A stretch of 64,000 nt of DNA from NCBI GenBank assembly GCA_024867545.1, contig JANFNE010000030.1, positions 434,001 through 498,000 on the forward strand. The letters are read 5' to 3'. Of the stretch, positions 520-46,191 are shown piece by piece. The notes under the pieces were generated by a model. That model searched no databases and was not told where the DNA came from. It was given only the letters and a program-made list of their open reading frames with translations. The stretch is from Phytopythium helicoides. Lineage: Eukaryota > Oomycota > Peronosporomycetes > Pythiales > Pythiaceae. Made by a program: the position numbers and the translations under genes. How positions within the stretch are numbered: position 1 is the first letter of the stretch; the number at the start of each line of letters is the position of its first letter.

Positions 520-522
520 GAG

Positions 523-2692: not shown

Positions 2693-2695
2693 GAG

Positions 2696-2768: not shown

Positions 2769-2954
2769 ATAACATAACATCAAACACACACATATACAAA
2801 CACAAACAAATACAAACAAACACAAACAAACACAACAACCACCACCACAACGACGACGACAAACAGAAGTCGTCATGTTGCTCGCTGCTCTCAACTTGAT
2901 CCGTTCAATGTCGTTGCTAGTTGGGTTGAACAATGCTTCCGTCGTATCTCAACA

Positions 2955-15047: not shown

Positions 15048-15551
15048 GAAGGCTTGAGATGCTAGCGGCGAAGCCTTGTGCTTCCGCAGGAGACCGATGA
15101 GGGCCAACAGGCAAGAAAACCGATACTATTATTATCAATTTCTCTGGGATGAAGACTCCGCAACTTTCCTTCGGCTTCAACCTGACAACTCTTCGTCAGA
15201 CTGATCACAAGCAAGACCGAAAGGAGAAACCGAGATTTTGCGTCCAAATGAGTCTCTCACGCCAAGCGTCTCGCGAGCCTTGAAGTTTTGTCATAGTTGA
15301 ACTTTCAGCATAAACATGTCATGATACGCCGAGATTGCCAAGTACCACTCAACAATGCTCCTCTGATCACACGTATCAAAAATGAAGTGCAACGTGAATT
15401 CTCCGCAATCTTGTTGTTCTTCAACTCAGATTTGTTGCGTGGTCACGTAAAGGACACGGAACCCTACAATTGCCATTCCGCAATCCCCGAGGTCGTTTCC
15501 AATTCGTGATCTGCCCACAGTGATCTCGATATCGAATCGGGTTTCTCAACA
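15048..15551. promoter_or_regulatory. Divergent promoter region POC5 / GH78 left copy
   Basis: 504 bp between the POC5 start (minus) and the GH78 start (plus). It must carry both promoters. No motif I can name with confidence. Its GH78-proximal sequence is not shared with the inverted GH78 copy, whose homology stops at the start codon. Confidence 0.5.
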
Positions 15552-18104
15552 ATGCCAAGTCGTCGAGCTTTCACTCTCGTAGGTGCGGCACGATTGCTGT
15601 CGGCCACGACTCAAGTCGGTGCCTCCGAATCGTTCGGCGTCTTCTTGCCCAAGCAAGGCGCGCTCGGCTCTGGACCCACATTCCCGTCGGGTAACCCAGC
15701 GCTCCCGGTCTCGTTGTCGACAGCGGAGCCGTGCGTGACACTCGACTATGGATTCGAGGTTGCGGGTCAGCCCGAGTTCTCCGTGCAACGTGTCGATGGA
15801 GCGTTTGCCGAAGTCGAAGTCAAGTACTCCGAGTCGTTCACGTCACTCTCAAACGCACTCTCGGATGGACCGTTTATCTGGACTGCGCCACTCGCAAACT
15901 CCAACCGCGTCGAGACCTTCAACTTTACGTCACCGGGGACGACGACATCGATGACTCAAGGTGCTCAGCGATGGCAAACCCTGTGCCTTCTTCGTGGCGA
16001 TAACGTGACGTTCGACCGAATTGGCTTCCAAGCGACTGTGCCTGTTGTAGAAGATGTTGCCACCGATCTCCCGGGATCTTTCGTCAGCTCGGATGAAAAG
16101 CTGAACGCGATTTGGAAGCTCGGACCTCGCGCCACCAGCGTCGCGTGCATCGGTGCGCAGTCCCAACCTCCGATCTGGAGCGTCGACACAGAGAACGGAA
16201 CCCGTGTGCCTGGCACCCGTCCAGGATACTCGTACAAGACCTGGAACATGTCCAACTACGTGCTGGAGTTTGACACGTTCTTGCTTCGCGGAGGTATGCG
16301 CGTGTCACTGGGATACGACATCGCTGGGAACTCCGATGGCATCCACATGCAGCTGTCATCCGAGTACCCGGCTGATAACACCTTCAGCAATGCCAACACG
16401 ACGCTGTTCCCTCCCAATACCGTCAAGCTTGCGTACGGCAATGACTTCATCAACATCACGACGGTGACATCGTACGAGCTTGAAACCTTCGACGTGCCCT
16501 TCGCAGTCCAAGAGAACGAGTGGTACCATGTCACTGTCGATGTTGACTCGGATGCGCACCGACTCGCTTACTGGCTCAACGATACGCTTGTGTTCAACGT
16601 GAGCATCGACGAGCTCCCGAACGCTGCATTCATCAGCGACGCCAGCGTGACTGGTGCTATCGGGTTTGGTGGATGGCAAGATCAAGCTGCATACATCCGC
16701 AATGTTGTTGTCAGCGACAAAACCTCCGGCAATGTCATCTACTCGAACGACATGACCAACGAGACGAGCGTCCTGCCCGAGTTTGGCGAGCAGTCGAACG
16801 CCTACGGTGTGTGCATGGATGGTGGCAAGCGTGATCGGTACTTGTGGCTCGGCGACTTTTACCACACGGTACGAATCTTGGGTGTTGCTCAAGGCGTGGG
16901 TGATCGGGATGTAGTCACGGGAACGTGGCGCTATCTGTTCGACTTTCAGTCGAGTGCTGGTCAGTTCCCTGGTCTTGTGCCAATCTCATACGAAGCGCCG
17001 ATGCCGACGAGAGAGATTTTCATGACCAACGCCCAAAACCCCGATGCTGCTTTTCTCGTGTTCCCAGACTACGCGATTCTCGGGCTCATTTCTTTCGTGT
17101 CGTACATGGAGTACTCGGGCGATACAGCATTTGCGACCAAGTACTGGGCTGAGCTGTCGAGTGCCGTCGATTGGATCGGCACGTACAAGACCTCAAGTGG
17201 ACTACTCGACTTCTCTGCCGATCTGGTCGTGTTCCTTGGCTCTCCAGTAGGTGTAGCAGTGAACTCGGCTGCGGTGCAAACCTACCGTGGGATGGCTCGT
17301 ATTGCAACCGCACTCGGTGACTCGGAGATTGCCGCCAATTGGACGGGTCTGGCCGATGACTTGTCTACTGCAATCAACTTACATCTCTGGAACGACGACC
17401 TTGGTGTATTCGTTGATGCAACCTCGACCCCACAGCAGTACAGCGTCAGTGGAGTAGCATTTGCTGTCACTTCCGGCGTTGCCAATGACTCACAGGCGCT
17501 CTCGAGCCTCAACCTCATTGATTCGACGCTGCGAGACCCCGTTGGTATCGGATACCTCGACTCGAGTGCGACGGACAACTCGACCAAGATCTCGCCAAAC
17601 ACGAACGGATTCCTGCTTGATGCGCTGCTACAGTACGGTCTGACCGAGCCAGCCAAGTACCTGCTCAACAACTTGTGGGGAGCCATGCTCAACGACTCGT
17701 ACGGATCAGGAGGTAGCTGGGAGTACGTCGGTCAGGACTTTGCGCCTGGCTTGTCCGACTTCACTTCGCTCAGCCATCCGTGGGGAGGCGCGGCAACGTA
17801 CGCACTGACAAACTTTGTTGCTGGTATCAAGTCAGAGAGCTTTGGGTTTCAGACGTGGAGTATCAAACCACTCGCGTTGGAGTTTGGCATCACGAACGTG
17901 TCGAGCCACGTCGCCACTCCGTTCGGACCGCTTGGGGTTGAACTAGAACTCGACGACAATTCGACCGAGCTGCACGTTGTCATCACGTCGCCTGCAGGGA
18001 CCACGGGGGTCTTCGCTATCGATTTGCCTAGCAACAACTCGGCGGATTCGTTTTCACTCAACATCACTGGAGGAGCTGAGACGACATTTGTAGTTGCCTT
18101 GTAG
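15552..18104 (+). CDS. GH78 alpha-L-rhamnosidase, secreted (left-arm copy)
   Basis: 850 aa, intact single exon. Hydrolyses terminal alpha-L-rhamnosides, probably on plant cell-wall pectin or glycosides, outside the cell. A basic start followed by a modest hydrophobic stretch (AFTLVGAARLL, ending near residue 27) looks like a signal peptide. Beta-sandwich domains fill the first half. The GH78 signature CMDGGKRDRYLWLGDF sits at about residues 420-435 and carries the acidic residues expected near the active site. The helical barrel follows, then SHPWGGAATYAL at about 740, and a C-terminal beta domain. Many N-x-S/T sites suggest heavy glycosylation. It is almost identical to the copy at 42271-44823, but its upstream sequence differs, so the two are driven by different promoters. 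AATAAA at 18184 is a candidate poly(A) signal. Confidence 0.92.
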   Translation: MPSRRAFTLVGAARLLSATTQVGASESFGVFLPKQGALGSGPTFPSGNPALPVSLSTAEPCVTLDYGFEVAGQPEFSVQRVDGAFAEVEVKYSESFTSLSNALSDGPFIWTAPLANSNRVETFNFTSPGTTTSMTQGAQRWQTLCLLRGDNVTFDRIGFQATVPVVEDVATDLPGSFVSSDEKLNAIWKLGPRATSVACIGAQSQPPIWSVDTENGTRVPGTRPGYSYKTWNMSNYVLEFDTFLLRGGMRVSLGYDIAGNSDGIHMQLSSEYPADNTFSNANTTLFPPNTVKLAYGNDFINITTVTSYELETFDVPFAVQENEWYHVTVDVDSDAHRLAYWLNDTLVFNVSIDELPNAAFISDASVTGAIGFGGWQDQAAYIRNVVVSDKTSGNVIYSNDMTNETSVLPEFGEQSNAYGVCMDGGKRDRYLWLGDFYHTVRILGVAQGVGDRDVVTGTWRYLFDFQSSAGQFPGLVPISYEAPMPTREIFMTNAQNPDAAFLVFPDYAILGLISFVSYMEYSGDTAFATKYWAELSSAVDWIGTYKTSSGLLDFSADLVVFLGSPVGVAVNSAAVQTYRGMARIATALGDSEIAANWTGLADDLSTAINLHLWNDDLGVFVDATSTPQQYSVSGVAFAVTSGVANDSQALSSLNLIDSTLRDPVGIGYLDSSATDNSTKISPNTNGFLLDALLQYGLTEPAKYLLNNLWGAMLNDSYGSGGSWEYVGQDFAPGLSDFTSLSHPWGGAATYALTNFVAGIKSESFGFQTWSIKPLALEFGITNVSSHVATPFGPLGVELELDDNSTELHVVITSPAGTTGVFAIDLPSNNSADSFSLNITGGAETTFVVAL

Positions 18105-18461
18105 ACTACAGCGTAAGGTTGTATGGACTCTATAAGTCGATGATGTCTCGATAACGCTGCAGCCTACAGCCTACAGCGTCAGCAATAAACAGGTCTTTGA
18201 ATTGGATGCGGTGTCAGTGCACAAATGAACAATTGAGTCACTTCACATGTGATCGTTTGCGAGAAGAGAACTTGTTGGATCCGATTGTTTGTGTATCCGC
18301 ATCATACTACCATCGCACATCTCGAAGCTCTTGCTCACCTTACCAAACCATACCCTCAAGATCCGAGCCAAAAGCCTTCGTTCAGGCTCAGACAGCAGCT
18401 ATGATTGCTCAAGGAAGAACTTGTACGACGTCGACAGCACGAGGAAAGAAGACAACGAAGC
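18105..18461. other. Convergent 3' region, GH78 / GW gene
   Basis: 357 bp of 3' flanks. Contains a short tandem CCTACAG repeat and AATAAA at 18184-18189. The same region recurs at 22393-22750 and, inverted, at 41914-42270. Open frames run antisense through the GW gene here but are not called. Confidence 0.6.
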
Positions 18462-18698
18462 TTACCAACCCCAACCACCGAGACCCCATCCGCCAAATCC
18501 CCACCCACCACCAAAACCCCACGGTCCACCCCAACCAAATCCTGGTCCCCAAAACTCCTTGTTGGATCCTCCGGCACCTCCACCTCGAAGTGACTCTGCA
18601 CTCTTCAATTGGTTCACTGGGACGTTCGGAGACGGATCCGCCGCGACAGTGGCAGCTGCCACAACGAAGGTAGCGAGAGCGAGAGCACCAATCTTCAT
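18462..18698 (-). CDS. Small secreted Gly/Trp-rich protein (GW copy 1)
   Basis: 78 aa. A clear signal peptide (MKIGALALATFVVAAATVAA) is followed by a short polar stretch ending SAESLRG. The C-terminal 30 residues are almost only Gly, Trp and Phe with Leu/Pro: GFGWGGPWGFGGGWGFGGWG and so on, ending GWGW. There is no Cys. The SLR in the polar stretch recalls the YxSL[RK] motif of Pythium-type secreted proteins, but the Tyr is absent, so I do not call it an effector. This copy has two extra Gly compared with copies 2-4. A CGAGGAAA-N11-TTTCCTCG-type inverted repeat lies about 160 bp upstream (18858-18884). I do not know a function; a wall-associated or surface-active role is only a guess from composition. 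Confidence 0.8.
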   Translation of the reverse strand: MKIGALALATFVVAAATVAADPSPNVPVNQLKSAESLRGGGAGGSNKEFWGPGFGWGGPWGFGGGWGFGGWGLGGWGW

Positions 18699-19470
18699 GT
18701 TGGGAGTGGCTTGGAAGAGATAAAGGAGAGGAGGAAGAGGAAGAGAGCTGTGAGCTTGCAGGTGAGTTCGAGAGTGAGTGAGTTTAGTTTGTGTTTGTTC
18801 GATCAATGGTGCTTGGTGACTTGGGATTTTTCGTAGATTGTTTGAGGATGGAACTCACGAGGAAACTCGACAATGATTTCCTCGACATTGTTTGGTTCGG
18901 TCGAGAGAGAGAGAGATCACGAGGTTTCCTCGATTCGAGATTGCTGCGGCTGTCAAAGACGCTCGGGAGTTTGTTTTTATGGAGCCTGAAGGGTTCATTC
19001 CATGCTCAAGCTCGTTCGTTCGCTCGTGTGTTGAGCCTTGCTCACCGATTGGTTCATCGTGTCGAAAAGTGAGCAGATTGCAGATACAACAGCACCGCGA
19101 CGCCTTTCAGGAAAAGAAAAGTTGCCATCGGCATCAACAAACACAAACGCTCGGCTTGGCAGCAAACGCTCGGCTCGGCAGCGTGACGGATTTCAAACCC
19201 TCGACGACGAAATCTATCGCCGCCAGGTTTTGGATTCATAGTCAGGTTCATCACTGACACTTACTAACCAGATTCCAGGACACGAAACAGAAGAAGATAA
19301 CACTAACAGCAGATGCCTACGATTGTAGCAACAAAGCACAAACAGCCCATTCTCCTTTCATCAAAAAGAACAAGCAAGCAAACAAATAACCATTCCAACA
19401 CTCAAGTGTCATTCATATTCATCGTGAGAAATAATCCACTCCATACCTCTCACACGAAACACCAAGCAAC
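18699..19470. other. Intergenic: GW promoter and polyubiquitin 3' flank
   Basis: 772 bp. The half next to the GW gene is purine/pyrimidine-skewed (GA and GAGT runs) and holds the inverted repeat at 18858-18884. The rest is the 3' UTR side of the polyubiquitin gene. Repeated, diverged, at 22982-23737 and, inverted and nearly identical, at 40912-41682. Confidence 0.6.
18858..18884 (-). promoter_or_regulatory. Inverted repeat upstream of GW copy 1
   Basis: 8-bp arms CGAGGAAA and TTTCCTCG with an 11-base spacer, about 160 bp before the GW start. The same element, with spacer changes, stands 156-160 bp before every GW copy. Possible transcription-factor site; function not shown. Confidence 0.5.
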
Positions 19471-21033
<1,563 letters not shown>

Positions 21034-21655
21034 TCAGCCGAGGCGCCTGTCGCGCTTGAGCGCCGCGGACTCGTGCAGCGCCAGCGTCGCGTCGGCCGCG
21101 CGCAGCTCGGCGCCTTCTCTCGCGGGCGCTCGCTGGCGCGTGAGGCGCGCGCGCAGCACCTCGTTCCTCCCGCTCGCGCGCTTCTTCTTGGGGTCGACGG
21201 ACGAGGAGACAGGCGCCGTGGAGGACTTGGCGTCGCCGGACGCTGGCTGCTCGCCCTTGAGCACCTGCCACACCTGCACAGGGGCGTGGAGGCTTTCTTG
21301 GGGGTCTGGAGAGGGCGAAGGCGTGAGCAGCTGGAGCTTGGAGAGCAGCCCCGTGAACGGACTCGGCATGTGCACGTCCAGGCAGCGCATGGCGTCGCGG
21401 AACGGACGCGAGAAGTTGGTGCGCAGCGCGCGCCGGAGCCTGCGCCGCGTGGTGTGGAGCGCTTCGAGCTGGGAAGAGGGTGGACTGCCGCGCTGCTCGA
21501 GATGGAAGAGCTCGTCCTGCACCTCCATGAGCCGCGTCGACCACACGACGAAGAAGAAGCGCAGGAACTCCTGCTGCCCAATGCGGTGGTCGCTTGACAC
21601 GTCGATGCACGACAGCAAGAGGTAGATCTGTCGGTTGGCAAGTGGTTTGCGGGTC
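21034..21655 (-). pseudogene. 3' fragment of the giant C2/EF-hand gene
   Basis: About 207 codons matching the C-terminus of the gene at 28003-39120 (from RKPLANRQIYLLL to the stop), with scattered substitutions. It contains the last EF-hand-like segment and the basic Arg-rich tail. Homology ends abruptly at 21655 and the frame runs a few codons into unrelated sequence, so the gene body and promoter are missing. It is the inner edge of the left duplication arm. An ATG in the junction could start a short protein, but nothing suggests it is used. Confidence 0.85.
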
Positions 21656-21680
21656 ATCAAATTGCAGTCCAACACTAGAG
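21656..21680. other. 25-bp junction filler between two duplication pieces
   Basis: Sequence that matches neither the C2 gene on its left nor the GH78 fragment on its right. It marks the breakpoint where the left arm meets the third, partial copy. Confidence 0.7.
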
Positions 21681-22392
21681 CGACGACCTTGGTGTATTCG
21701 TTGATGCAACCTCGACCCCAGAGCAGTACAGCGTCAGTGGAGTAGCATTTGCTGTCACTTCCGGCGTTGCCAATGACTCACAGGCGCTCTCGAGCCTCAA
21801 CCTCATTGATTCGACGCTGCGAGGCCCCGTTGGTATCGGATACCTCGACTCGAGTGCGACGGACAACTCGACCAAGATCTCGCCAAACACAAACGGATTC
21901 CTGCTTGATGCGCTGCTACAGTACGGTCTGACCGAGCCAGCCAAGTACCTGCTCAACAACTTGTGGGGAGCCATGCTCAACGACTCGTACGGATCAGGGG
22001 GTAGCTGGGAGTACGTCGGTCAGGACTTTGCGCCTGGCTTGTCCGACTTCACTTCGCTCAGCCATCCGTGGGGAGGCGCGGCAACGTACGCACTGACAAA
22101 CTTTGTTGCTGGTATCAAGTCAGAGAGCTTTGGGTTTCAGACGTGGAGTATCAAACCACTCGCGTTGGAGTTTGGCATCACGAACGTGTCGAGCCACGTC
22201 GCCACTCCGTTCGGACCGCTTGGGGTTGAACTAGAACTCGACGACAATTCGACCGAGCTGCACGTTGTCATCACGTCGCCTGCAGGGACCACGGGGGTCT
22301 TCGCTATCGATTTGCCTAGCAACAACTCGGCGGATTCGTTTTCACTCAACATCACTGGAGGAGCTGAGACGACATTTGTAGTTGCCTTGTAG
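21681..22392 (+). pseudogene. GH78 alpha-L-rhamnosidase, 5'-truncated
   Basis: Corresponds to the last 237 or so codons of the intact GH78 genes, from the DLGVFVDATSTP segment to the same C-terminal VVAL stop, with SHPWGGAATYAL conserved. The signal peptide, N-terminal domains and the DGGKRDR motif are absent, so it cannot be an active secreted enzyme. One small deletion after the STP segment (a CA lost) also breaks the frame near 21719. The truncation point is the duplication junction at 21655-21681. Confidence 0.9.
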
Positions 22393-22750
22393 ACTACAGC
22401 GTAAGGTTGTATGGACTCTATAAGTCGATGATGTCTCGATAACGCTGCAGCCTACAGCCTACAGCTTCAGCAATAAACAGGTCTTTGGAATGGATGCGGT
22501 GTCAGTGCACAAATGAACAGTTGAGTCACTTCACATGTGATCGTTTGCGAGAAAAAAAACTTGTTGGATCCGATTGTTTGTGTATCCGCATCATACTACC
22601 ATCGCACATCTCAAAGCTCTTGCTCACCTTACCAAACCATACCCCCAAGATCCGAACCAAAAGCCTTCGTTCAGGCTCAGACAGCAGTTATGGTTGCGCA
22701 AGGAAGAACTTGCCCGACGTCGACAGCACGAGGAAAGAAGACAACGAAGC
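22393..22750. other. Convergent 3' region, GH78 fragment / GW copy 2
   Basis: Copy of 18105-18461 with a few changes. AATAAA at 22472-22477. Nothing else seen. Confidence 0.55.
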
Positions 22751-22981
22751 TTACCAACCCCAGCCACCAAGACCCCATCCGCCAAATCCCCACCCACCAC
22801 CAAAACCCCACGGTCCGCCCCAACCAAATCCTGGTCCCCAAAACTCCTTGTTGGACCCTCCGGCACCTCGAAGTGACTCTGCACTCTTCAATTGGTTTGC
22901 TGGGACGTTCGGAGACGGATCTGCCGCGACAGTGGCAGCTGCCACAACGAAGGTAGCGAGAGCGAGAGCACCGATCTTCAT
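22751..22981 (-). CDS. Small secreted Gly/Trp-rich protein (GW copy 2)
   Basis: 76 aa, the same layout as copy 1: signal peptide to about residue 20, a polar stretch (NVPANQLKSAESLRG), then the Gly/Trp/Phe tail ending GWGW. It differs from copies 3 and 4 by only two substitutions (Val to Ala in the polar part, Leu to Phe in the tail), although its flanks have drifted more. That contrast suggests the protein is under constraint. The inverted repeat lies at 23140-23166, 159 bp upstream. Confidence 0.8.
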   Translation of the reverse strand: MKIGALALATFVVAAATVAADPSPNVPANQLKSAESLRGAGGSNKEFWGPGFGWGGPWGFGGGWGFGGWGLGGWGW

Positions 22982-23737
22982 GTTGGTAATGGCTTGAAAG
23001 AGATGAAGGAGAGGAGTACGATAAGAAGAAGAGCTGTTAGCTTGGAGGCGAGTTCGAGAGTGAGTGAGTTTAGTTTGTGTTGGCTCGATCAATGGTGCTG
23101 ACTTGAGAGTTTTCGTCGATTCCTTGAGGACGGAACTCACGAGGAAACTCGACAACGATTTCCTCGACATTGTGTGGTTCGGTCGAGAGAGAAAGATCAC
23201 GAGGTTTCCTCGATTCGAGATTGCCGCGGCAATCAAAGGCGTTCGGAAGTTTGTCGTTGTGGAGGCTGAAGGTTTGATTCATGTTCAAGTTCGTTCTCTA
23301 GTTCTCTCGTTCTCTCATATGTTGAGAGTCGCCCACCGATCGGTTCATCGTGTCGAAAAAGTGAGCAGATTGCAGATGCAAAAGGACCGCAACGCTTTTC
23401 AAGAAAAGAAGGCTGGCATCGGCATCAACAAACAGAAATGCTCGTCAGCGAGAGATGGATATCAAACTCTTGATGATGACATTCATCACCACCATGTCTT
23501 GGATTGGATTCACATTCAGCACCACCACTAACATTACAACAAACAGATTCCAGGACACGAAAAAGAAGAAGACGACACACTAACATCTTGGCGCAAATGG
23601 TAGCAACAGAGCACAAACAACCACTCTCATCTCATCAAAAACAATCCACAACCATTCAATTCCAACACTCAAGTGTCATTCATATTCATCGTGAGAAATA
23701 ATCCACTCCATACCTCTCACAAGAAACACCAAGCAAC
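22982..23737. other. Intergenic: GW copy 2 promoter and polyubiquitin 3' flank
   Basis: 756 bp, a diverged copy of 18699-19470. It holds the inverted repeat at 23140-23166. No gene seen. Confidence 0.55.
23140..23166 (-). promoter_or_regulatory. Inverted repeat upstream of GW copy 2
   Basis: Arms CGAGGAAA/TTTCCTCG with an 11-base spacer that carries one change relative to copy 1; 159 bp before the GW start. Confidence 0.5.
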
Positions 23738-25060
<1,323 letters not shown>

Positions 25061-27779
25061 CTAGTTCTGCGTGGAGCTGCTGCCGCCGCTGCTACCGCCC
25101 ATGCCGCCCGCAAAGTTGAACGGCACCTTGGCAAAGTTCTGCATGTTCTTCTTGAGGCTCTCGGTCATGTCGCTCATCTTGCCCTCCATCTCGGCGATCT
25201 TGCCCGCGGGCCGGCGCTGCAGCCCTAGTGTCTCGAGATACGCGACCTGCTCGCTCTTCTTCAAGCCCTTCATATTCATGATGCTCTGGAAATCGTCCGC
25301 GTTGCCATCGGGCCACATGATCTTGAAGCTCTCAACCAGCATCTCGTTTGGTGTGCCCAGCAGCTTGAGCACGCTCTCAATCTTGGCCATTTCGCTCGTG
25401 ACAAACTTGGTGTAGCGCGCTGGGATGAGCGGCGAAGACGCCGCCGATGAGCTCACCGACTCGCTCGTGTGCAGGACTGGCAACTGCAGGAACAGCGTCT
25501 TGAGCGCATACACGTCCAGCAGCAACTGCTGCGTCGCGACCTGGTTCACCTTGCGGCACTTCATGACGGTTTGCAGCACGCGCGGCACGAAAGCTGCCGC
25601 GAACTTATCGCAGAAATTGGTAAAGTACAGTGCCGACAGCATCTGCCGAATCACCGGGACAAACACGCGCAGCTTGTCGCCCATTTGCGTCACGTACGCG
25701 CTCTCGTCTCCCACAGCCTCCCATGTCTGCCAGTTCGTGCGTGGCATAGCGCTGAGGTCGTCATCCAGGGCGGTCTCCAAACCTGCGACGATGCACTTCA
25801 TGGCTGCAGCTCCGACGTCATGGAAAGTATCCATCTCGGCAGCGAGCTCGATCGAGTCGCTGTACGCCTTGTCGATCTTGGCACGAATCACGTCTTCGAG
25901 CGATGGCAGCGTCTCGGCACAATACTCGGCAGTATTGATGACAAAGCACAGTTCTTCTTCTTGCTTGTCCGCCAATCTGATTTTGAGCGCGCTATTTGCC
26001 GCGTTGCTTCCAGATCCACCAGCCGAGTCGCCGCTTTGAGATCCACCTGCTGCGCCACCAGGAGCTGCAGCTGCCGGTAGCTTATTGAGCAATCGCTGCG
26101 AGTAGAGCTGGAAGCAGTGCTTGAATTCGTTGTGAAGGTCAAAGAACGTCTGGCCGTTCGTCAGCGCAGTGCAGCGCTTAATTGAGCTTCGGATGTACGC
26201 AAACATGTTGACCGAGCTCGAGAACACTGGGAGCTGGCCATTGCGGTCAACGACCTCCGAGCTCATGACCTCGTCAATCATTTGCTCCATGTTCTTGCGC
26301 TCGAGGCGGACGTACGCCGTCATGAATGGGTCGAAAGAGCGCGATATAATGCCTCGAATGGTGGGGAGATCCATGTCGGCGGAGCTCGCAAACACCTCGC
26401 CCTTCTTTGCCATCTCCTCCTCCAGTGCTTTTCGCTCAGCCTCGCGCTTGCGCCGCCGATGCTTTCTCTTGATACCTTCAGCCGAGTGTGGATCAATAAG
26501 TTGTCCATCCTCGTCAAATTCGTCTTCGTTGTCGACACCTCCTGGAGAGGATCCCTCGAACCGCTCCGCTACGTCTCGCTCAAACATGAGCGTTCGCTGG
26601 AGCGATTTTAGAAGCAGTGTGACGTCCATTTCCTCTGGTGTGTGAGCACCAATTTGCGCCAGCAAGTGTGTCCGAGTGGTCTCGCAGAACTGGATGCAGA
26701 TGCGGCGGCTCATAAGCCAATGGCGCGGGAAAATGCACTCCAGGCGCTCCTCAATCGTTGTCAGTAGGTGGTAAAACCACGGGTAGCGCTTGTCAGCCTG
26801 CTCAAGCCCAGCACACTCGCCGTTGTCACCAAACAGCCTGTTGTACGATACAAGTTGCTCCTCACAAAATGACCGAATGAGCTTCTCCCGAGTGGTACGG
26901 CCAAGCGCATCAACAACCGCGCACGCCGCCGACAAGTTAGTAAAGAGGGCGTTGAGCTCTTCCTCAGACGTAAAGTTCTCTTCGAGGCTCTCGAGAGGTC
27001 CGATCGAGCGAAAGTCAGCAAAGATCTGTCCGCCCATCTCTTCTTGCAGCGTTCGCACGGTCGAGTGGAGCTCAACGATCTTGCTCACGTTCGCGTACCC
27101 GTCAAAGTGCGTGAAGAGCTGGTTGACGGCCTCAAGCAGCGACGCGGCCTCTCTGTAATTGCGCTGCGAGGCCATGAGCTCGAGCTGGTCGACGGCGTTG
27201 ACGAGCATGTGCAGCCGCTTGAGCGCCGTGAGCGTCGTCTGCAGGTGTCTCTTGGCGTAGTCGAGCTGCTTGATGTCCCTGCATATCTCCTGCACCATGA
27301 CCTCGGACTGCTCGGCCTTGCCGCGAATGTCGTGGATCTTGTGGAAGAGCTGCTGCACAGCCATCTTGGCCTCCTTGAGGTCCGCGAGCGCCTGGTGGGC
27401 CGCCAGGCTCTGGTCCTGCGACGCCTGCGACAGCGCGTCGTCCAGCTCCTTCATCCGCACGCGCAGGCGGCTCACGAACGCGCCGATGTCCTCCAGGCTC
27501 TGCTCATCGGGGAAGTTGCGGTTGATGAAGTCCCGCGCGTCGAACTCGGGCCGGTCCAGCACGTCCTCAGACGGCAGCACCTGGGGGAGAAAGGCCGATT
27601 CCCGTGAGCTTCCGGCGCCGATAACTCCGCAACCACCGCGCCAATTCGGGCCTACGCACGCTCGTCAGCGTCTCCTCCACCTTCTGCGGCAGATTCAGCG
27701 CGTTTCCGTCGTCCGCGGGCGCTGCGCTGCGCTTGGCGTCGCCCGCCGCGCGGCCGCCCAGCCGCAGCAGCATCGCCAT
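25061..27779 (-). CDS. VPS53: VPS53, GARP tethering-complex subunit
   Basis: Two exons, 27779-27660 and 27580-25061 (79-nt intron, GTGCGT...CAG), joined in phase to 879 aa. VPS53 is a subunit of the GARP/EARP complexes that tether endosome-derived vesicles at the trans-Golgi. The N-terminal region shows the VPS53 pattern: FINRNFPDEQSLEDIGAFV, a coiled coil, then DIKQLDYAKRHLQTTLTALK, LHMLVNAVDQLELM and a hydrophilic helical-rod body. The C-terminal region has the conserved VMLKLLGTP-like segment (SVLKLLGTPNEMLVESFKIM). The length is usual for the family. A low-complexity acidic/basic loop with RKHRRRKREAERKA sits near the middle. ATG 27779 is the first ATG in exon 1. Divergent from the C2 gene with 223 bp between starts. 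Confidence 0.92.
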
Positions 27780-28002
27780 CTTCTCTCCCTCAAAGGATCC
27801 GCACGATTGACTTGGGAGTTGTATGCTGAGGGCAACCTCTGCAAATCGTGAGTGTACAGCATTCTTTCGTTACGGATTCGCATTGGCTACTGGTCCGTAA
27901 CGGCGCGTTGATTGGCTGGAATCTCGCACGGGTACACGAGGAACCCACACGTTTCCATAGCCAAAACCGGAGTATAAACCCTCACACGTCGCAGCTCCGG
28001 CC
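27780..28002. promoter_or_regulatory. Bidirectional promoter VPS53 / giant C2 gene
   Basis: 223 bp separate the two divergent start codons, so the promoters must overlap or be shared. A GAGTATAAACCC stretch lies about 30 bp before the C2 start. Confidence 0.5.
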
Positions 28003-34000: not shown

Positions 34001-37000
34001 AGCAATCTATTCGTGACCCAGTTTGGGGCTCTGAAATCGTAGAAATACCGATTTTGTCAGCGTACCTGCAGGCAGCATCTCCAACAATATTTATTGAAAT
34101 CGTTGACCTAGCTATTCGCACAGCAAACGTCAATGCGCTTGCTGTAATCACGTTTGGCTCAGTTAAAGTCGATGCATTTATTCGCCATCCAACAGCTACA
34201 AGCTATGGCTTCTATAAACTCGGGAACGCTTCCCAAACGTGTTCATGCCTATTTCTTGGGTGTCAGTTTATTCCTACAAATCAGCTTCAAGGAATGCTCC
34301 CATTTACGAGTAAGTTATCTGACACAGAGGTAGGCAAGCTCTGTAAAAGTGGACAAATCCATATCAAAGCGGTTCAGTTCCGCTTCGAGCTGGTCAACTA
34401 CTTTCGGGAGCTGGTTATGTGCACCACTCCAAATTTGCGCTTCAAACTCCTTGCAGTCAATTCATCCCCAGACTCGGCGTCTCGATTCTGCGTGAAGGTG
34501 ACAGAAGAGGTGATTCCAGTCCCGCAAATGTGTACTTCGATTCTTGACATTGTATCGAGCGAAGGATATATTGAGTGGAGTGCGCTGGGCAAAGAAAAGG
34601 TAGACGCAAAAGAAGACAACAACGTGATTCTTTTTGATTGGAATCCAGAGCTTGGTTCTCTTAGCAGTGGTGTACAAGCAATACTTCATCAGAGGGCAAA
34701 TCCAATTCTCATATGTGAGCTTGTTCTAAACAGTGGCAAAGGCGATGCGGACAAGCCCGCCGTGAGCGTTATAGGCGAGCTGGAGCTGCCTCTTTTTGAT
34801 TTTGTACTGTTGGAGGGACATTTGTTGGGTGGATGGTACCCTTTGACAGCCCCAAAAGGAAATTCGGAACCTACAGCATATTTGCGCGAGTTGAAATCAA
34901 GCAAATGTGCGGATTTAAAGCTTGAGATCCAGTTTCTCCCTACATTGGTAGACACAGATGCCAATAAAGTTTCAGATTCGAAGGCACTAACAACCGAGTC
35001 GATTGATGTACTGGAATTTCACATCGACCGAGTAAAGGAATTTCAAGGCGCGCACTCAGGGATCTACACAGTGTCTGTTGAGCTTTTGGGATGCCGCGCA
35101 GAGACGAAGCCACCAATATCAGTGTCTATGAATTCGTTGGTATGGGGTGAAACACTAGATCTTGCATTGCCAGCAAATGCATCAATAGTTTCAAAACCTG
35201 TGACTTTCATGCTACACAATTTGTCAAATCCAGAGCAAAAATTTCTTGCTACTTGCAACTGGGTTCTTCCAGATGAGCCGAGCTCCAGTCAATCAGAATC
35301 TGTTGTACTTCAACTTTTTGATCCAGACAGGAAACAGCAGAGTTCGAGCAAGGAGGCTATTGCAGAGCTTGTTTTGAATGTTCGAAAAGCAGCAACATAT
35401 TCAGAACCTCGACCGCAAACTATCCCGCCAACGTCACTCGAAACTCAACGAAGAGGTGTCTTGTATGCCCTTTTCAATCGACCAAAGTCGAATGACAAAA
35501 ACTTATATATATCTGCAGCGTTTGTTCCCTCTACATATACGCAAGATGCGTTGATGTGCTCCAACACGCTTTCCTTGGATGGCACAAATAAGTTTTTGCC
35601 AATTGAGTATGAACGTTTCAGTGGTTTTGAGGTTACTGGCATTAGTACTTCACCACAGAAAAAGTTCGCTGTTGTCGTTCGTCCACAACCTTCGGATTCC
35701 GAAGTTGGTAACAGTGCTTTGGGATATGCAGAAATCAACGACAAAGTGCTGCGAGCACTAGAAAGTAAACCACGAGTTGAGATATTCCAAAGAATTCCAG
35801 TTCACCCATTATTGGCGCCCTCAAATCCTCAACAAGAAAAATCAGCTGCACTACCCTCAGATATAGCGGCAAGTACACTTCCATCAACGCTTTCTGCTCG
35901 TTTAGTGTTCTTAAACGTACTTCATGGCCATTTTATTGTTGCTTTCAAGTCAGCAAAGGCAGAAAAAGTGCGTCTTGAATTCTTCACCAAATTTCGGGTG
36001 GAGCTCCGTCTACTTTACTGCCGGTCAGCTTGGCAAAAATCATCTTTTGGTACCTGGAATAAGCAAAGCTCGCGTGTGGAGTGGAAAAATGAGAGCAAAG
36101 AATGCTCTATTTCTCAATCTGCAGTAAAGATTGAATTCTCAAACGAAAACATGATCGCCGAGCCTATGCTTCAACTCGTTTTAATTGGGATTGCAACCAA
36201 ACATCCGTCAAAAGGAGGTAGTAGTCAAGAAGATAGTGGTGCACGCATTGCTTTTGGTCAGCTGTCGCTGTTGAATATTCTTACTGAGCAAGATTGGAAT
36301 GGTTCACTTCTTGACCGCCCAATCCAACTGTCTTCTGTCAATACGAACTCAAAAGTAGGCGAGGGTGACGGTATTGTTGAAGTTTATGCATCCATCGGTT
36401 TTATTGGAGTGGAGGCAACAAACGATGAGATTGAAGCACAGCTCGTAAAGTCTCGCAACGAGCAAGTGCTGCTCCTAGCGGAGGGTACAGCCAAGCTAAA
36501 GAAAACCTTTGTCGTGCTTGGAGGCAGCGAAGAAACCCCTATCTCCATTAATTCGCTGAAGAAGTATCTGCTTGATGAATCCCCGGAGGACACTAATGAC
36601 CTTCTGGCAGCTCGCCAGGTAATTCTTAACGCTGCAGAACAAGAGACCGATGGGGATCTCGACCGTTTGTTTGCACTCATGGATGTCAACGGCGACGGGC
36701 AGATATCATGGTCTGAGTATACAAATCACATGCAAACACTATTCGCCCTGGCAAATACTGCGGTGATGCGTTCGCTTATAAAAGATCAAGTAACCCAACC
36801 GGCAAATCAAGAAGACATCCACGATGACGATGAGGAGGAAGAGCCCGAAGAGCCCGTGGGTACTCCAAGTGAAGGCGGGGCCGATGAAGAAGATGCTGCT
36901 GACGTTGTATCAACCAATTCAGTTTCTCGATTTGCGCAGCCAATCCCTAGTCGGTCTGACCTTGCCAGGAGAGTGGATGAGTATGAAGACTCCCCGCCAG

Positions 37001-39120
37001 TGATTAAAAAAGAAGAACAGCTATCAACAACTCGAAAGCAATCAGTACAACCACCTGGTGTAGAGCCAGCAATGGCAACCACCCGAGCTAAGGCGCAAAC
37101 TGTACTAGTCGACAATGTGAATACTTTACAAAAGAATGATGCTACGACAAAACAAAGCCTTAATCGATCGAAGCGCACAGACACAAAAACTCCGTCGCGA
37201 AAACCACTTTCGACGAACATTCTCGACTGGAAGGTTGATGAAGTGCTTCAGTGGCTGGAAGAGGAAATGGAGCTTCCTCAATATGGAGAAGGAATCATCC
37301 GAAACGCAGTAAACGGCCGACTACTGCTTACTTTAAGCGAGTCGGAGCTTGAATCGGAGCTTGGTGTCACAGCTGCTCTACACAAGAGAAAGCTGGTGAC
37401 TCACATTGCCGAGCTGCAAGAAGTAGCAGACTACCCACCTCTGCAGCGCTCGCTGGAACCAAGCGAGAACCTACGCTCAAATCGGACTAGAGCCTTGCGG
37501 ACAAACACAACAGAGACTCCATCTTTTATTCGACGCGAGCAGCTACTCTACCAGACAAGGGCAGCGGCAGCACAGCCTGAGGCAACGCCGTTCAACACAA
37601 CCAAAGTTCCAAAGAAGCGCCCCGCAGTGACTACATTAGTGTTGGATCAAAACGAACAGTCTCCGCTTACAGCAACGAAGGCAAGACCTGTGAGTTTAGC
37701 TACCGCCGACAAAAGAAACGATGAGGATCAAAGCGATGGCGAAGATGTGGGTGAGAGCTTTGCGGATGCCATGCAAGATATTCTAGAGGCAGTTGGGCCA
37801 AGTACTCCAAAGGACACTGCCTCGTCAAGGTTACCACTCGATGAACTTGAGTCAACCTCCAAGTTGTCCCCAACATTGCCAAAACTTCCTTTGATTCAAG
37901 TCGGATCCATAACAAGCACAGACGAGCTATTCGAAATTGTCAAGAACCGGATCCATCAGCTCGCTGATCAGCTCCGACCTCTCCAAACACTTCAAGACAG
38001 CGACTCTTTCAGCGACTTTGGGGAGTCAAACGACGGCGAGACTAACAACAAAGGGGACGAAGAAACCGAAGAACTCACTGGACTCCGCCTCGCTTTCAAC
38101 ACCTTGGCAAACTCACACGCTACGGAGGCCAAACTCTCGCGTTTGCGTTTTCAGAAGTCTCTTCTATCCGTACTTGCTGTTGATGCGTCCTGGCACCAGT
38201 TCGATCTGCTCTTCCGTCGTGTGGACGTCAACAATAACGCCGAGCTGTCATTCCAGGAATTCCAGAGTGTCTTCCGTCGCGCATTCATCGGCTTTGAGCC
38301 TGGAGATCTCGCGGTGCTACAGGATGCGCTCGTAGACTTTGTCATCGACCGGCTTGACTCGCAGCAGTGGACGCTGTTGGAGCTCTTCAAGGCGTTTGAT
38401 CGCGACGGCGGCGGAAAGATCTCGGTCGCTGAGTTCGGCACGCTCGTGCGGTTTCTATTTGGTCGCGCAGTGAATTCCTCCAAGAATCGCGGGCGGCCGA
38501 CCCGCAAACCGCTCGCCAACCGACAGATCTACCTCCTGCTGTCGTGCATCGACGTGTCAAGCGACCACCGCATCGCGCAGCAGGAGTTCCTGCGCTTCTT
38601 CTTCGTCGTGTGGTCGACGCGGCTCATGGAGGTGCAGGACGAGCTCTTCCATCTCGAGCAGCGCGGCGATCCACCCTCTTCCCAACTCGAAGCGCTCAAC
38701 ACCACGCGGCGCAGGCTCCGGCGCGCGCTGCGCACCAACTTCTCGCGTCCGTTCCGCGACGCCATGCGCTGCCTGGACGTGCGCATGCCGAGTCCGTTCA
38801 CGGGGCTGCTCTCCAAGCTCCAGCTGCTCGCGCCTTCGCCCTCTTCAGACCCCCAAGAGAGCCTCCACGCCCCTGTGCAGGTGTGGCAGGTGCTCAAGGG
38901 TGAGCAGCCAGCGTCCGTCGACGCCAAGTCCTCCACGGCGCCTGTCTCCTCGTCCGTCGACCCCAAGAAGAAGCGCGCGAGCGGGAGGAACGAGGTGCTG
39001 CGCGCGCGCCTCACGCGCCAGCGAGCGCCCGCGAGGGAAGGCGCCGAGCTGCGCGCGGCCGACGCGACGCTGGCGCTGCACGAGTCCGCGGCGCTCAAGC
39101 GCGACAGGCGCCTCGGCTGA
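28003..39120 (+). CDS. Giant multi-C2 / EF-hand / SAM domain protein
   Basis: About 3,650 codons; I read it as one gene with introns at 31672-31748 and 32413-32474, both phase-consistent. At least five clear C2 domains (Ca2+/phospholipid-binding) are visible: three N-terminal ones share the loop (K/R)KPDP(Y/F)V (about 28105, 29025, 29785), others are GNLHLLVLYAQDL (31315) and the very typical GILCLRFVAGRNLTD...EQDPYVV (33285). Several degenerate C2-like repeats lie between. Then follow an EF hand (DVNGDGQISWSEY, 36680), a low-complexity acidic linker, a SAM domain (LDWKVDEVLQWLEEEM, 37228), and two or three EF hands (DVNNNAELSFQEF, 38225; DRDGGGKISVAEF, 38400). No membrane segment was seen. 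The frame jumps twice near the 5' end without splice signals: somewhere in 28740-28810, and at about 29194-29198 (an extra G). A role in Ca2+-regulated membrane or scaffold function is inferred. Confidence 0.75.
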
Positions 39121-40911
<1,791 letters not shown>

Positions 40912-41682
40912 GTTGCTTGGTGTTTCGTGTGAGAGGTATGGAGTGGATTATTTCTCACGATGAATATGAATGACACATGAGTGTTGGAATGGTTATTTGT
41001 TTGCTTGCTTGTTCTTTTGATGAAAGGAGGATGGCTGTTTGTGCTTTGTTGCTACAATCGTAGGCATCTGCTGTTAGTGTTATCTTCTTCTGTTTCGTGT
41101 CCTGGAATCTGGTTAGTAAGTGTCAGTGATGAACCTGACTATGAATCCAAAACCTGGCGGCGATAGATTTCGTCGTCGAGGGTTTGAAATCCGTCACGCT
41201 GCCGAGCCGAGCGTTTGCTGCCAAGCCGAGCGTTTGTGTTTGTTAATGCCGATGGCAACTTTCTTTTCCTGAAAGGCGTCGCGGTGCTGTTGTATCTGCA
41301 ATCTGCTCACTTTTTCGACACGATGAACCAATCGGTGAGCAAGTCTCAACACACGAGCGAACGAACGAACTTGGGCATGGAATGAACCCTTCAGGCTCCA
41401 TAAAAACAAACTCCCGAGCGTCTTTGACAGCCGCAGCAATCTCGAATCGAGGAAACCTCGTGATTTCTTTCTCTCTCTCGACCGAACCAAACAATGTCGA
41501 GGAAATCATTGTCGAGTTTCCTCGTGAGTTCCATCCTCAAACAATCGACGAAAAATCCCAAGTCACCAAGCACCATTGATCGAACAAACACAAACTAAAC
41601 TCACTCACTCTCGAACTCACCTGCAAGCTCACAGCTCTCTTCCTCTTCCTCCTCTCCTTATCCCTTCCAAGCCACTCCCAAC
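40912..41682. other. Intergenic: polyubiquitin 3' flank and GW copy 3 promoter
   Basis: 771 bp, inverted near-identical copy of 18699-19470. Holds the inverted repeat at 41498-41524 and CT-rich sequence just before the GW start. Confidence 0.6.
41498..41524 (+). promoter_or_regulatory. Inverted repeat upstream of GW copy 3
   Basis: CGAGGAAA-N11-TTTCCTCG, 159 bp before the GW start; same element as in the other three copies. Confidence 0.5.
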
Positions 41683-41913
41683 ATGAAGATTGGTGCTCTC
41701 GCTCTCGCTACCTTCGTTGTGGCAGCTGCCACTGTCGCGGCGGATCCGTCTCCGAACGTCCCAGTGAACCAATTGAAGAGTGCAGAGTCACTTCGAGGTG
41801 CCGGAGGATCCAACAAGGAGTTTTGGGGACCAGGATTTGGTTGGGGCGGACCGTGGGGTTTTGGTGGAGGGTGGGGATTAGGCGGATGGGGTCTCGGTGG
41901 TTGGGGTTGGTAA
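41683..41913 (+). CDS. Small secreted Gly/Trp-rich protein (GW copy 3)
   Basis: 76 aa, identical to copy 4 (45649-45879). Signal peptide MKIGALALATFVVAAATVAA, polar stretch ending SAESLRG, then a tail of about 28 residues built from GWG/GFG/GLG units and ending GWGW. It lies between polyubiquitin (upstream, same strand) and GH78 (convergent), as in the other blocks. No family known to me; secretion is the only confident inference. Confidence 0.8.
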   Translation: MKIGALALATFVVAAATVAADPSPNVPVNQLKSAESLRGAGGSNKEFWGPGFGWGGPWGFGGGWGLGGWGLGGWGW

Positions 41914-42270
41914 GCTTCGTTGTCTTCTTTCCTCGTGCTGTCGACGTCGTACAAGTTCTTCCTTGAGCAATCATAGCTGCTGTCTGAGCCTGAACGAAGG
42001 CTTTTGGCTCGGATCTTGGGGGTATGGTTTGGTAAGGTGAGCAAGAGCTTCGAGATGTGCGATGGTAGTATGATGCGGATACACAAACAATCGGATCCAA
42101 CAAGTTTTTTTCTCGCAAACGATCACATGTGAAGTGACTCAACTGTTCATTTGTGCACTGACACCGCATCCATTCCAAAGACCTGTTTATTGCTGAAGCT
42201 GTAGGCTGTAGGCTGCAGCGTTATCGAGACATCATCGACTTATAGAGTCCATACAACCTTACGCTGTAGT
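41914..42270. other. Convergent 3' region, GW copy 3 / GH78
   Basis: 357 bp, inverted copy of 18105-18461. TTTATT at 42186-42191 is the GH78 poly(A) signal candidate read on the minus strand. Confidence 0.55.
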
Positions 42271-44823
42271 CTACAAGGCAACTACAAATGTCGTCTCAGC
42301 TCCTCCAGTGATGTTGAGTGAAAACGAATCCGCCGAGTTGTTGCTAGGCAAATCGATAGCGAAGACCCCCGTGGTCCCTGCAGGCGACGTGATGACAACG
42401 TGCAGCTCGGTCGAATTGTCGTCGAGTTCTAGTTCAACCCCAAGCGGTCCGAACGGAGTGGCGACGTGGCTCGACACGTTCGTGATGCCAAACTCCAACG
42501 CGAGTGGTTTGATACTCCACGTCTGAAACCCAAAGCTCTCTGACTTGATACCAGCAACAAAGTTCGTCAGTGTGTACGTTGCCGCGCCTCCCCACGGATG
42601 GCTGAGCGAAGTGAAGTCGGACAAGCCAGGCGCAAAGTCCTGACCGACGTACTCCCAGCTACCCCCTGATCCGTACGAGTCGTTGAGCATGGCTCCCCAC
42701 AAGTTATTGAGCAGGTACTTGGCTGGCTCGGTCAGACCGTACTGTAGCAGCGCATCCAGCAGGAATCCGTTTGTGTTTGGCGAGATCTTGGTCGAGTTGT
42801 CCGTCGCACTCGAGTCGAGGTATCCGATACCAACGGGGTCTCGCAGCGTCGAATCAATGAGGTTGAGGCTCGAGAGCGCCTGTGAGTCATTGGCAACGCC
42901 GGAAGTGACAGCAAATGCTACTCCACTGACGCTGTACTGCTGTGGGGTCGAGGTTGCATCAACGAATACACCAAGGTCGTCGTTCCAGAGATGCAAGTTG
43001 ATTGCAGTAGACAAGTCATCGGCCAGACCCGTCCAATTGGCGGCAATCTCCGAGTCACCGAGTGCGGCTGCAATACGAGCCATCCCACGATAGGTTTGCA
43101 CCGCAGCCGAGTTCACTGCAACACCTACTGGAGAGCCAAGGAACACGACCAGATCGGCAGAGAAGTCGAGTAGTCCACTTGAGGTCTTGTACGTGCCGAT
43201 CCAATCGACGGCACTCGACAGCTCAGCCCAGTACTTGGTCGCAAATGCTGTATCGCCCGAGTACTCCATGTACGACACGAAAGAAATGAGCCCGAGAATC
43301 GCGTAGTCTGGGAACACGAGAAAAGCAGCATCGGGGTTTTGGGCGTTGGTCATGAAAATCTCTCTCGTCGGCATCGGCGCTTCGTATGAGATTGGCACAA
43401 GACCAGGGAACTGACCAGCACTCGACTGAAAGTCGAACAGATAACGCCACGTTCCCGTGACTACATCCCGATCACCCACGCCTTGAGCAACACCCAAGAT
43501 TCGTACCGTGTGGTAAAAGTCGCCGAGCCACAAGTACCGATCACGCTTGCCACCATCCATGCACACACCGTAGGCGTTCGACTGCTCGCCAAACTCGGGC
43601 AGGACGCTCGTCTCACTGGTCATCTCGTTCGAGTAGAGGACATTGCCGGAGGTTTTGTCGCTGGCAACAACATTGCGGATGTATGCAGCTTGATCTTGCC
43701 ATCCACCAAATCCGATAGCACCAGTCACGCTGGGGTCGCTAATGAATGCAGCGTTCGGGAGCTCATCGATGCTCACATTGAACACAAGTGTATCATTGAG
43801 CCAGTAAGCGAGTCGGTGCGCATCCGAGTCGACATCGACAGTGACGTGGTACCACTCGTTCTCTTGGACTGCGAAGGGCACGTCGAAGGTTTCAAGCTCG
43901 TACGATGTCACCGTCGTGATGTTGATGAAGTCATTGCCATACGCGAGCTTGACGGTATTGGGAGGGAACAGCGATGTGTTGGCATTGCTGAACGTGTTAT
44001 CAGCCGGGTACTCGGATGACAGCTGGATGTGGATACCATCAGAGTTCCCAGCGATGTCGTATCCCAGTGATACCCGCATACCTCCGCGAAGCAAGAACGT
44101 GTCAAACTCCAGCACGTAGTTGGACATGTTCCAGGTCTTGTACGAGTATCCTGGACGGGTGCCAGGCACACGAGTTCCGTTCTCTGTGTCGACGCTCCAG
44201 ATTGGAGGTTGGGACTGCGCACCGATGCACGCGACGCTGGTGGCGCGAGGTCCGAGCTTCCAAATTGCGTTCAGCTTTTCATCCGAGCTGACGAAAGATC
44301 CCGGGAGATCGGTGGCAACATCTTCTACAACAGGCACAGTCGCTTGGAAGCCAATTCGGTCGAACGTCACGTTATCGCCACGAAGAAGGCACAGGGTTTG
44401 CCATCGCTGAGCACCTTGAGTCATCGATGTCGTCGTCTCTGGTGATGTAAAGTTGAAGGTCTCGACGCGGTTTGAGTTTGCGAGTGGCGCGGTCCAGATA
44501 AATGGTCCATCCGAGAGCGCGTTTGAGAGTGACGTGAACGACTCGGAGTACTTGACTTCGACTTCGGCAAACGCTCCATCTACATGTTGCACGGAGAACT
44601 CGGGCTGACCCGCAACCTCGAATCCATAGTCGAGCGTCACGCACGGCTCCGCTGTCGACAACGAGACCGGGAGCGCTGGGTTACCCGACGGGAATGTGGG
44701 GCCAGAGCCGAGCACGCCTTGCTTGGGCAAGAAGATGCCGAACGATTCGGAGGCACCGACTTGAGTCGTGGCCGAGAGCAATCGTGCCGCGCCTACGAGA
44801 GTGAAAGCTCGACGACTTGGCAT
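42271..44823 (-). CDS. GH78 alpha-L-rhamnosidase, secreted (right-arm copy)
   Basis: 850 aa, intact, nearly identical to 15552-18104; only a handful of substitutions. Same signal peptide region, CMDGGKRDRYLWLGDF motif and SHPWGGAATYTL segment (one Ala to Thr change). The start is ATG 44823, aligned with the left copy; the open frame continues upstream only through non-ATG codons. Upstream sequence differs completely from that of the left copy, starting at the start codon. Two intact and two broken GH78 genes in 35 kb point to recent expansion of this enzyme. Confidence 0.92.
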   Translation of the reverse strand: MPSRRAFTLVGAARLLSATTQVGASESFGIFLPKQGVLGSGPTFPSGNPALPVSLSTAEPCVTLDYGFEVAGQPEFSVQHVDGAFAEVEVKYSESFTSLSNALSDGPFIWTAPLANSNRVETFNFTSPETTTSMTQGAQRWQTLCLLRGDNVTFDRIGFQATVPVVEDVATDLPGSFVSSDEKLNAIWKLGPRATSVACIGAQSQPPIWSVDTENGTRVPGTRPGYSYKTWNMSNYVLEFDTFLLRGGMRVSLGYDIAGNSDGIHIQLSSEYPADNTFSNANTSLFPPNTVKLAYGNDFINITTVTSYELETFDVPFAVQENEWYHVTVDVDSDAHRLAYWLNDTLVFNVSIDELPNAAFISDPSVTGAIGFGGWQDQAAYIRNVVASDKTSGNVLYSNEMTSETSVLPEFGEQSNAYGVCMDGGKRDRYLWLGDFYHTVRILGVAQGVGDRDVVTGTWRYLFDFQSSAGQFPGLVPISYEAPMPTREIFMTNAQNPDAAFLVFPDYAILGLISFVSYMEYSGDTAFATKYWAELSSAVDWIGTYKTSSGLLDFSADLVVFLGSPVGVAVNSAAVQTYRGMARIAAALGDSEIAANWTGLADDLSTAINLHLWNDDLGVFVDATSTPQQYSVSGVAFAVTSGVANDSQALSSLNLIDSTLRDPVGIGYLDSSATDNSTKISPNTNGFLLDALLQYGLTEPAKYLLNNLWGAMLNDSYGSGGSWEYVGQDFAPGLSDFTSLSHPWGGAATYTLTNFVAGIKSESFGFQTWSIKPLALEFGITNVSSHVATPFGPLGVELELDDNSTELHVVITSPAGTTGVFAIDLPSNNSADSFSLNITGGAETTFVVAL

Positions 44824-44824
44824 T

Positions 44825-45464: not shown

Positions 45465-45466
45465 GT

Positions 45467-45493
45467 CGAGGAAATCATTGTCGAGTTTCCTCG
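45467..45493 (+). promoter_or_regulatory. Inverted repeat upstream of GW copy 4
   Basis: CGAGGAAA-N11-TTTCCTCG, 156 bp before the GW start. It sits at the very left edge of the duplicated segment, so the duplication kept exactly this much upstream sequence. Confidence 0.5.
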
Positions 45494-45648
45494 TGAGTTC
45501 CGTCCTCAAACAATCGACGAAAAATCCCAAACCATTGATCGAACAAACACAAACTAAACTCACTCACTCTCGAACTCACCTCCAAGCTCACAGCTCACAG
45601 CTCCCTTCCTCTTCCTCCTCTCCTTATCCCTTCCAAGCCACTCCCAAC

Positions 45649-45879
45649 ATGAAGATTGGTGCTCTCGCTCTCGCTACCTTCGTTGTGGCAGCTGCCACTG
45701 TCGCGGCGGATCCGTCTCCGAACGTCCCAGTGAACCAATTGAAGAGTGCAGAGTCACTTCGAGGTGCCGGAGGATCCAACAAGGAGTTTTGGGGACCAGG
45801 ATTTGGTTGGGGCGGACCGTGGGGTTTTGGTGGAGGGTGGGGATTAGGCGGATGGGGTCTCGGTGGTTGGGGTTGGTAA
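45649..45879 (+). CDS. Small secreted Gly/Trp-rich protein (GW copy 4)
   Basis: 76 aa, protein identical to copy 3: signal peptide, short polar stretch, Gly/Trp-rich tail. This copy stands alone, without a neighbouring polyubiquitin, and keeps only about 180 bp of the shared upstream sequence. Confidence 0.8.
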   Translation: MKIGALALATFVVAAATVAADPSPNVPVNQLKSAESLRGAGGSNKEFWGPGFGWGGPWGFGGGWGLGGWGLGGWGW

Positions 45880-46191
45880 GCTTCGTTGTCTTCTTTCCTC
45901 GTGCTGTCGACGTCGTACAAGTTCTTCCTTGAGCAATCATAGCTGCTGTCTGAGCCTGAACGAAGGCTTTTGGCTCGGGTCTTGGGGGTATGGTTTGGTA
46001 AGATGAGCAAGAGCTTCGAGATGTGCGATGGTAGTATGATGCGGATACACAAACAATCGGATCCAACAAGTTTTTTTCTCGCAAACGACCATTTGAATGC
46101 TTTACTTGCTTGTGGTACCCAGAGCTGGAGTCACTGATTTCCATGCTGGATCTTTAGACGTCATGTTCATAAATACTGAGCAACAGGTGCC

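Follow-up and report, generated by a model that had tools for sequence, protein, structure and literature searches.

An inverted segmental duplication of rhamnosidase, small secreted-type protein and polyubiquitin genes around VPS53 and a large C2 gene in the oomycete Phytopythium helicoides

Genes that lie between large, similar inverted repeats can be reoriented without being broken, as in the human inversion HsInv0389, which carries FLNA and EMD (available part of PMC3961182). The oomycete locus described here likewise holds genes between large similar inverted repeats. Inversions of the HsInv0389 type have been genotyped and are described as recurrent in that part of the paper, whereas here one orientation has been seen and a third copy adds the possibility of direct-repeat recombination. 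A second related system is long-tract gene conversion as set out in the available text of PMC6067765, and our locus resembles it in having homology on one side, a non-homologous joint on the other and duplication beyond the break. However, here the process is read from anatomy rather than observed as an event, and would have acted between inverted paralogues. The third is the concerted evolution of polyubiquitin genes (PMC10457151, again from the available part), with which our locus shares differing unit numbers, a single encoded protein and near-identical units across genes. It differs in that the genes found here are all clustered, as inverted or direct copies, within 21 kb. A literature search returned no paper joining polyubiquitin, Vps53 and an oomycete, and no title on this locus among the related-term matches listed.

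The window, by which we mean the whole 64,000-bp stretch that was analysed, covers positions 434001-498000 of its contig, and genome searches were made in the 49.06-Mb, 100-contig assembly. Within the window the left arm (L, 15551-21655, forward strand) is the reverse complement of the right arm (R, 38499-44824, reverse strand). Global alignment of the two gave 103 mismatches in 6,095 gap-free columns (72 transitions and 31 transversions), one gap of 228 bp and seven indels of 1-6 bp; the arms are 98.3% alike and their frames are open. BLASTN of the window against itself paired 15551-20389 with 44824-39993 (97.8% identity, E = 0) and 19478-21655 with 40676-38499 (98.5% identity, E = 0). An inverted duplication with 6 kb arms had been proposed in an earlier note on this DNA, and the comparison of the window with itself confirmed its end coordinates. 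Segmental duplications are defined as being at least 1 kb long and at least 90% identical, and L and R pass both values in inverted orientation. As assembled, the locus is an inverted segmental duplication, an ordinary kind of event with an unusually legible anatomy. The spacer between the arms measures 16,843 bp. VPS53 and the C2 gene both lie in it, as the note had said of a 17 kb spacer, but it also contains a third, partial copy (T) that the note had passed over.

Read from the spacer outward, each arm carries the 3′ end of the C2 gene, a polyubiquitin gene, a gene for a small secreted-type Gly/Trp-rich protein (SSP) and a GH78-type alpha-L-rhamnosidase gene, so the gene-for-gene match claimed earlier holds. 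In L these are the C2 end (21034-21655, reverse strand), a polyubiquitin gene (19471-20388, reverse), an SSP gene of 78 aa (18462-18698, reverse) and an open rhamnosidase gene of 850 aa (15552-18104, forward). In R, beyond the C2 end (38499-39120), the polyubiquitin gene (39766-40911, forward) is followed by an SSP gene of 76 aa (41683-41913, forward) and a rhamnosidase gene, also open and of 850 aa (42271-44823, reverse). Both arm rhamnosidases have six-hairpin and C-terminal rhamnosidase domains. Translations read by eye give the SSP 76-78 residues, a signal-peptide-like start and a Gly/Trp/Phe-rich tail. The SSP region has four matches in the assembly, namely the copies in L, R and T and a fourth copy (F, 45465-46091, forward strand), which is 96% identical to that of R, forms a direct repeat upstream of the R rhamnosidase and, like T, does not figure in the note. 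Further rhamnosidase paralogues were also seen. One, diverged and in two pieces (9849-12579, reverse strand; 50% and 51% amino-acid identity to R), lies head-to-head with the L rhamnosidase, and another, at 71-72% amino-acid identity, is on contig C34.

The direction of copying can be read from the large C2/SAM/EF-hand gene (approximately 27961-39120, forward strand; main ORF 32398-39120, gene limits approximate). As previously noted, this gene is intact and continuous with the right arm, and the left arm has its 3′ end only, a stub of the last 206 codons plus stop in an open frame with no indel in 621 bp. Because within the window the C2 gene is whole only on the right, L is the derived copy over the tract that bears the stub, and the inner 4.9 kb of L at least (approximately 16761-21655) probably came from R. 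The earlier statement that the left arm is the copy thus stands for this portion at least, but probably not for the outermost 1.2 kb, which differs in its divergence, an unevenness that the note did not mention.

With gapped columns dropped, L and R differ at 42/1209 sites (3.5%) in the 5′ part of the rhamnosidase gene, 11/1344 in its 3′ part, 7/359 in the rhamnosidase-SSP spacer, 3/230 in SSP, 9/770 in the SSP-polyubiquitin spacer, 8/915 in polyubiquitin, 7/646 in the polyubiquitin-C2 spacer and 16/621 (2.6%) in the C2 end. Divergence therefore peaks at both ends of the arm, the middle segments lying at 0.8-2.0%. In the rhamnosidase gene the change point falls at 16761, and one as strong arose in 1 of 2,000 shuffles, or 3 of 2,000 when third positions only were used. 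Synonymous differences number 31/293 before this point (pS 0.106) and 9/328 after it (pS 0.027), with a Fisher p of 6.5e-5 for a split picked from the same data. Forty-two of the 53 rhamnosidase differences are in third codon positions. When the 13 amino-acid differences were compared with P0121 (alignment read by eye), 4 looked changed in R, 2 in L, and 7 were unpolarised. With four times the synonymous divergence of the remainder, the first 1.2 kb of L is probably the 5′ half of an older, resident rhamnosidase. At the other end of the arm, the C2 end (21034-21655 against 38499-39120) is more diverged than the polyubiquitin-C2 spacer that adjoins it, and may mark the edge of a homogenised tract.

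The partial copy T (21656-24655, forward strand) abuts L directly and lies inside the spacer, in the same orientation as L and the opposite one to R. It consists of a rhamnosidase 3′ fragment lacking the 5′ half (21656-22392, forward), an SSP gene of 76 aa (22751-22981, reverse) and a polyubiquitin gene (23738-24655, reverse) that adjoins VPS53. Counts of T-R differences exclude gapped columns and the 20 junction-side bases 21656-21675, which carry several changes. On this basis the differences amount to 8/884 sites (0.9%) in 21676-22560, 19/440 (4.3%) in 22561-23000 and 122/721 (17%) in 23001-23744. The best single change point, 22974, is inside the SSP gene, and none of 1,000 shuffles gave one as strong; divergence is thus mosaic in T as it is in L, with significant change points in both. 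Similarity between T and R stops at the polyubiquitin ATG, and their polyubiquitin upstream regions showed no similarity at E 0.01. In 21676-22560, T, L and R have 4, 8 and 4 private differences, roughly a star, and copying of both L and T from R at around the same date would give such a pattern.

The boundaries of the copies are of two kinds. At 21655/21656, as read from the assembly sequence, the C2 3′ end meets the middle of a rhamnosidase gene (approximately codon 608) bluntly, with no base shared. By eye, T agrees with the R rhamnosidase at 10 of its first 11 bases, after which come a few substitutions and a short insertion; of 20,000 40-mers drawn at random from the window, 11 contained a match as good. 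At the outer end, similarity between the arms begins one base before the rhamnosidase ATG. The outer flanks of L and R showed no similarity to one another at E 0.01, and pieces of them gave one match each in the assembly. A resident gene carrying its own promoter would be expected to show such a boundary, one base before the ATG and between unlike flanks. Moreover, two halves of one rhamnosidase flank the insert with order and orientation kept, 15552-16760 on one side and the 3′ half from 21656 on the other, and a single resident rhamnosidase appears to have been split by the copied tract. That tract has one homologous boundary, the switch near 16761, and one non-homologous boundary, the blunt C2/rhamnosidase joint.

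These features bear on whether the left arm could be an assembly error, in which the second haplotype of the right arm was joined the wrong way round. Alleles can differ by approximately 1-2%, which is the divergence over most of the arm, and the junctions are known from the assembly sequence alone. However, the inner joint brings together non-homologous sequences (C2 and rhamnosidase), each outer flank is found once in the assembly, and the divergence is a mosaic. Moreover, a search of the assembly with the arm's inner piece gave two matches, neither of them outside the window, and VPS53 gave one, and the prevalence of third-position differences in the rhamnosidase is unlike sequencing errors. 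An inverted misjoin of haplotypes is thus unlikely on the sequence, and we give it very little weight.

We favour, with somewhat better than even confidence, a fairly recent inverted segmental duplication made by ectopic repair copying, whose copies were kept similar by gene conversion. Long gene-conversion tracts can end by end joining, and the anatomy can be laid out in five steps. First, an older inverted pair of rhamnosidase-SSP-polyubiquitin blocks would have flanked VPS53 and C2 on both outer sides. A double-strand break would then have fallen in the left resident rhamnosidase near codon 608. Its 5′ broken end may have invaded the right-hand rhamnosidase by homology and copied approximately 4.9 kb, from the 3′ part of that gene through SSP, polyubiquitin and the region upstream of it to the final 621 bp of C2. 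Copying would have halted there, with the new end joined bluntly to the other broken end and the resident 3′ half left beyond the insert as T. Lastly, gene conversion between the three copies, including exchange of ubiquitin units, would have kept the middles of the arms alike. The first four steps are read from the anatomy, whereas the mosaic divergence and the blunt junction are present in the assembly itself.

Three observations sit uneasily with this scheme. The simplest one-ended repair predicts an old sequence on the far side of the break, but this stretch (T 21676-22560) is not in a pre-event state, the rhamnosidase 3′ half of T being nearly R-like; the right-hand broken end would need to have copied a tract as well, or conversion to have followed. 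The T-R change point lies inside the SSP gene, with the SSP stretch intermediate in divergence. Moreover, the high ends and low middle of L-R divergence would also be seen if the arm had been copied all at once and its middle then homogenised. By this account, which we hold to be possible but the less probable of the two, a single older event placed a copy of the entire right arm in the left rhamnosidase, and conversion later homogenised the middle; the near-identical units across different ubiquitin genes, which suggest exchange, speak for it too. It would, however, make the outer boundary one base before the rhamnosidase ATG a coincidence, it has to accommodate unequal synonymous differences at the two ends (raw counts of 31/293 and 8/160), and it requires loss of the 5′ half of the T rhamnosidase.

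Other origins were also considered. A transposon origin was rejected, the inner piece of the arm being without a match in the assembly outside the window, and retroposition was ruled out, as the arms include intergenic DNA and upstream regions. Beside F lies an ORF of 901 codons (47170-49875) with no Pfam match, which may be an old transposase-type protein. Besides itself it has 16 matches in the assembly, all of them weak (the best covers residues 32-751 of 901 at 25% identity), and no sign of a recent high-copy element was seen.

The polyubiquitin genes provide a further record of contact between copies. There are three, with 13 units in all (4 in L, 4 in T and 5 in R), arranged as head-to-tail 76-codon units, and each array ends Asn-stop, with Asn as a single additional residue; the 228-bp gap between L and R is one unit. 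The encoded protein is the same for all 13. Unit L1 is identical to R1, and between L2 and T3 one site in 228 differs. Such near-identical units in different genes suggest, at the sequence level, exchange among the copies. Ubiquitin had at least seven matches in the assembly, three of them the polyubiquitin genes described here and the other four on contig C35. Of those four, one is presumably fused to an L40-like tail and two we take to be pieces of one gene with an S27a-like tail, whilst the fourth is short and gave no ubiquitin reading. All polyubiquitin arrays found in the assembly (at least three genes, 13 units) therefore sit in the one 21-kb cluster.

Relatives of the spacer genes give some indication of the original order. 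The VPS53 ORF (25061-27664, reverse strand; these are ORF limits) has one match in the assembly, and next to VPS53 lies the C2/SAM/EF-hand gene, the two pointing away from each other (25061-28000). Protein matches to VPS53 reach 94% for the closest, followed by Nothophytophthora sp. (82%), Globisporangium polare (81%) and Phytophthora kernoviae (80%). In a 795-aa gene model of Pythium insidiosum (P0031), VPS53 runs straight into ubiquitin units; the model is probably two adjacent genes merged by annotation, and this adjacency agrees with the T polyubiquitin gene adjoining VPS53. The Pythium oligandrum relatives of C2 and VPS53 are numbered successively (006732 and 006733), suggesting the same VPS53-C2 neighbourhood there. 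Based on the P0031 model and this numbering, the arrangement polyubiquitin-VPS53-C2 is probably old, and the remaining copies are additions to it.

The arms may also still be in contact. L and R share six runs of perfect identity that reach 200 bp or more, with a maximum of 464, and because of these runs recombination between the arms is plausible. The note had proposed that the spacer could flip in this way. Were it frequent enough, the 16.8-kb spacer would be found in both orientations, in the population or within one diploid nucleus, a possibility that we consider unlikely, although it is compatible with the repair model. Arms of 6 kb that are 98% alike with such runs would permit it, the C2 end in L keeps its open, indel-free frame, and human inversions between large inverted repeats are often recurrent (available part of PMC3961182). 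Against this, searches of the assembly, a single one, found a single arrangement. Moreover, the C2 ends differ by 8 synonymous and 8 replacement changes (p = 0.033 against equal rates, 0.081 with transition bias), which does not establish constraint on the copy in L, and relative to P0241, the nearest relative, 3 of the 7 amino-acid differences look changed in L, 2 in R and 2 are unpolarised. That VPS53-C2 flips in living populations as a reversible cassette switch, in which C2 swaps its last 206 codons and the polyubiquitin and rhamnosidase genes trade flanks, is more doubtful still, and we think it most improbable. If the arms do cross over, C2 would gain the other 3′ end, with its 7 amino-acid differences, and the genes would otherwise remain whole. 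Recombination need not be a two-state flip, because T lies in the spacer. From the coordinates, exchange between L and T would delete or duplicate approximately 4.3 kb, and exchange between T and R would invert approximately 15 kb.

Tandem tRNA arrays were seen nearby. Window positions 1-2865 hold an array of 711-731-bp units with four tRNA-Ala (CGC) genes, which begins at or before window base 1. Elsewhere on the same contig (254314-298034; loci L025 and L026) is a longer tandem array of approximately 0.9-1.0-kb units. It gave at least 38 unit matches, scoring having covered 38 of 176 candidates, and those listed did not include the array in the window. The two loci read hold tRNA-His (GTG) and tRNA-Ala (AGC) pairs. 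Arrays of tRNA genes have been described in Phytophthora infestans, and large tRNA gene numbers in other oomycetes (available part of PMC9584435).

In summary, a block of ubiquitin, rhamnosidase and SSP genes was probably duplicated after repair of a broken chromosome. The event yields more copies, with three polyubiquitin genes, four SSP genes and two open-frame rhamnosidases, and the locus looks like a legible natural record of one repair event raising the copy number of polyubiquitin, secreted-type protein and rhamnosidase genes in an oomycete. Moreover, the locus is marked by the C2 stub and by 4 as opposed to 5 ubiquitin units, and inverted-repeat recombination could be measured there. 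If the spacer does flip, the locus would offer a testable parallel in an oomycete to the recurrent inversions between inverted repeats in mammals.
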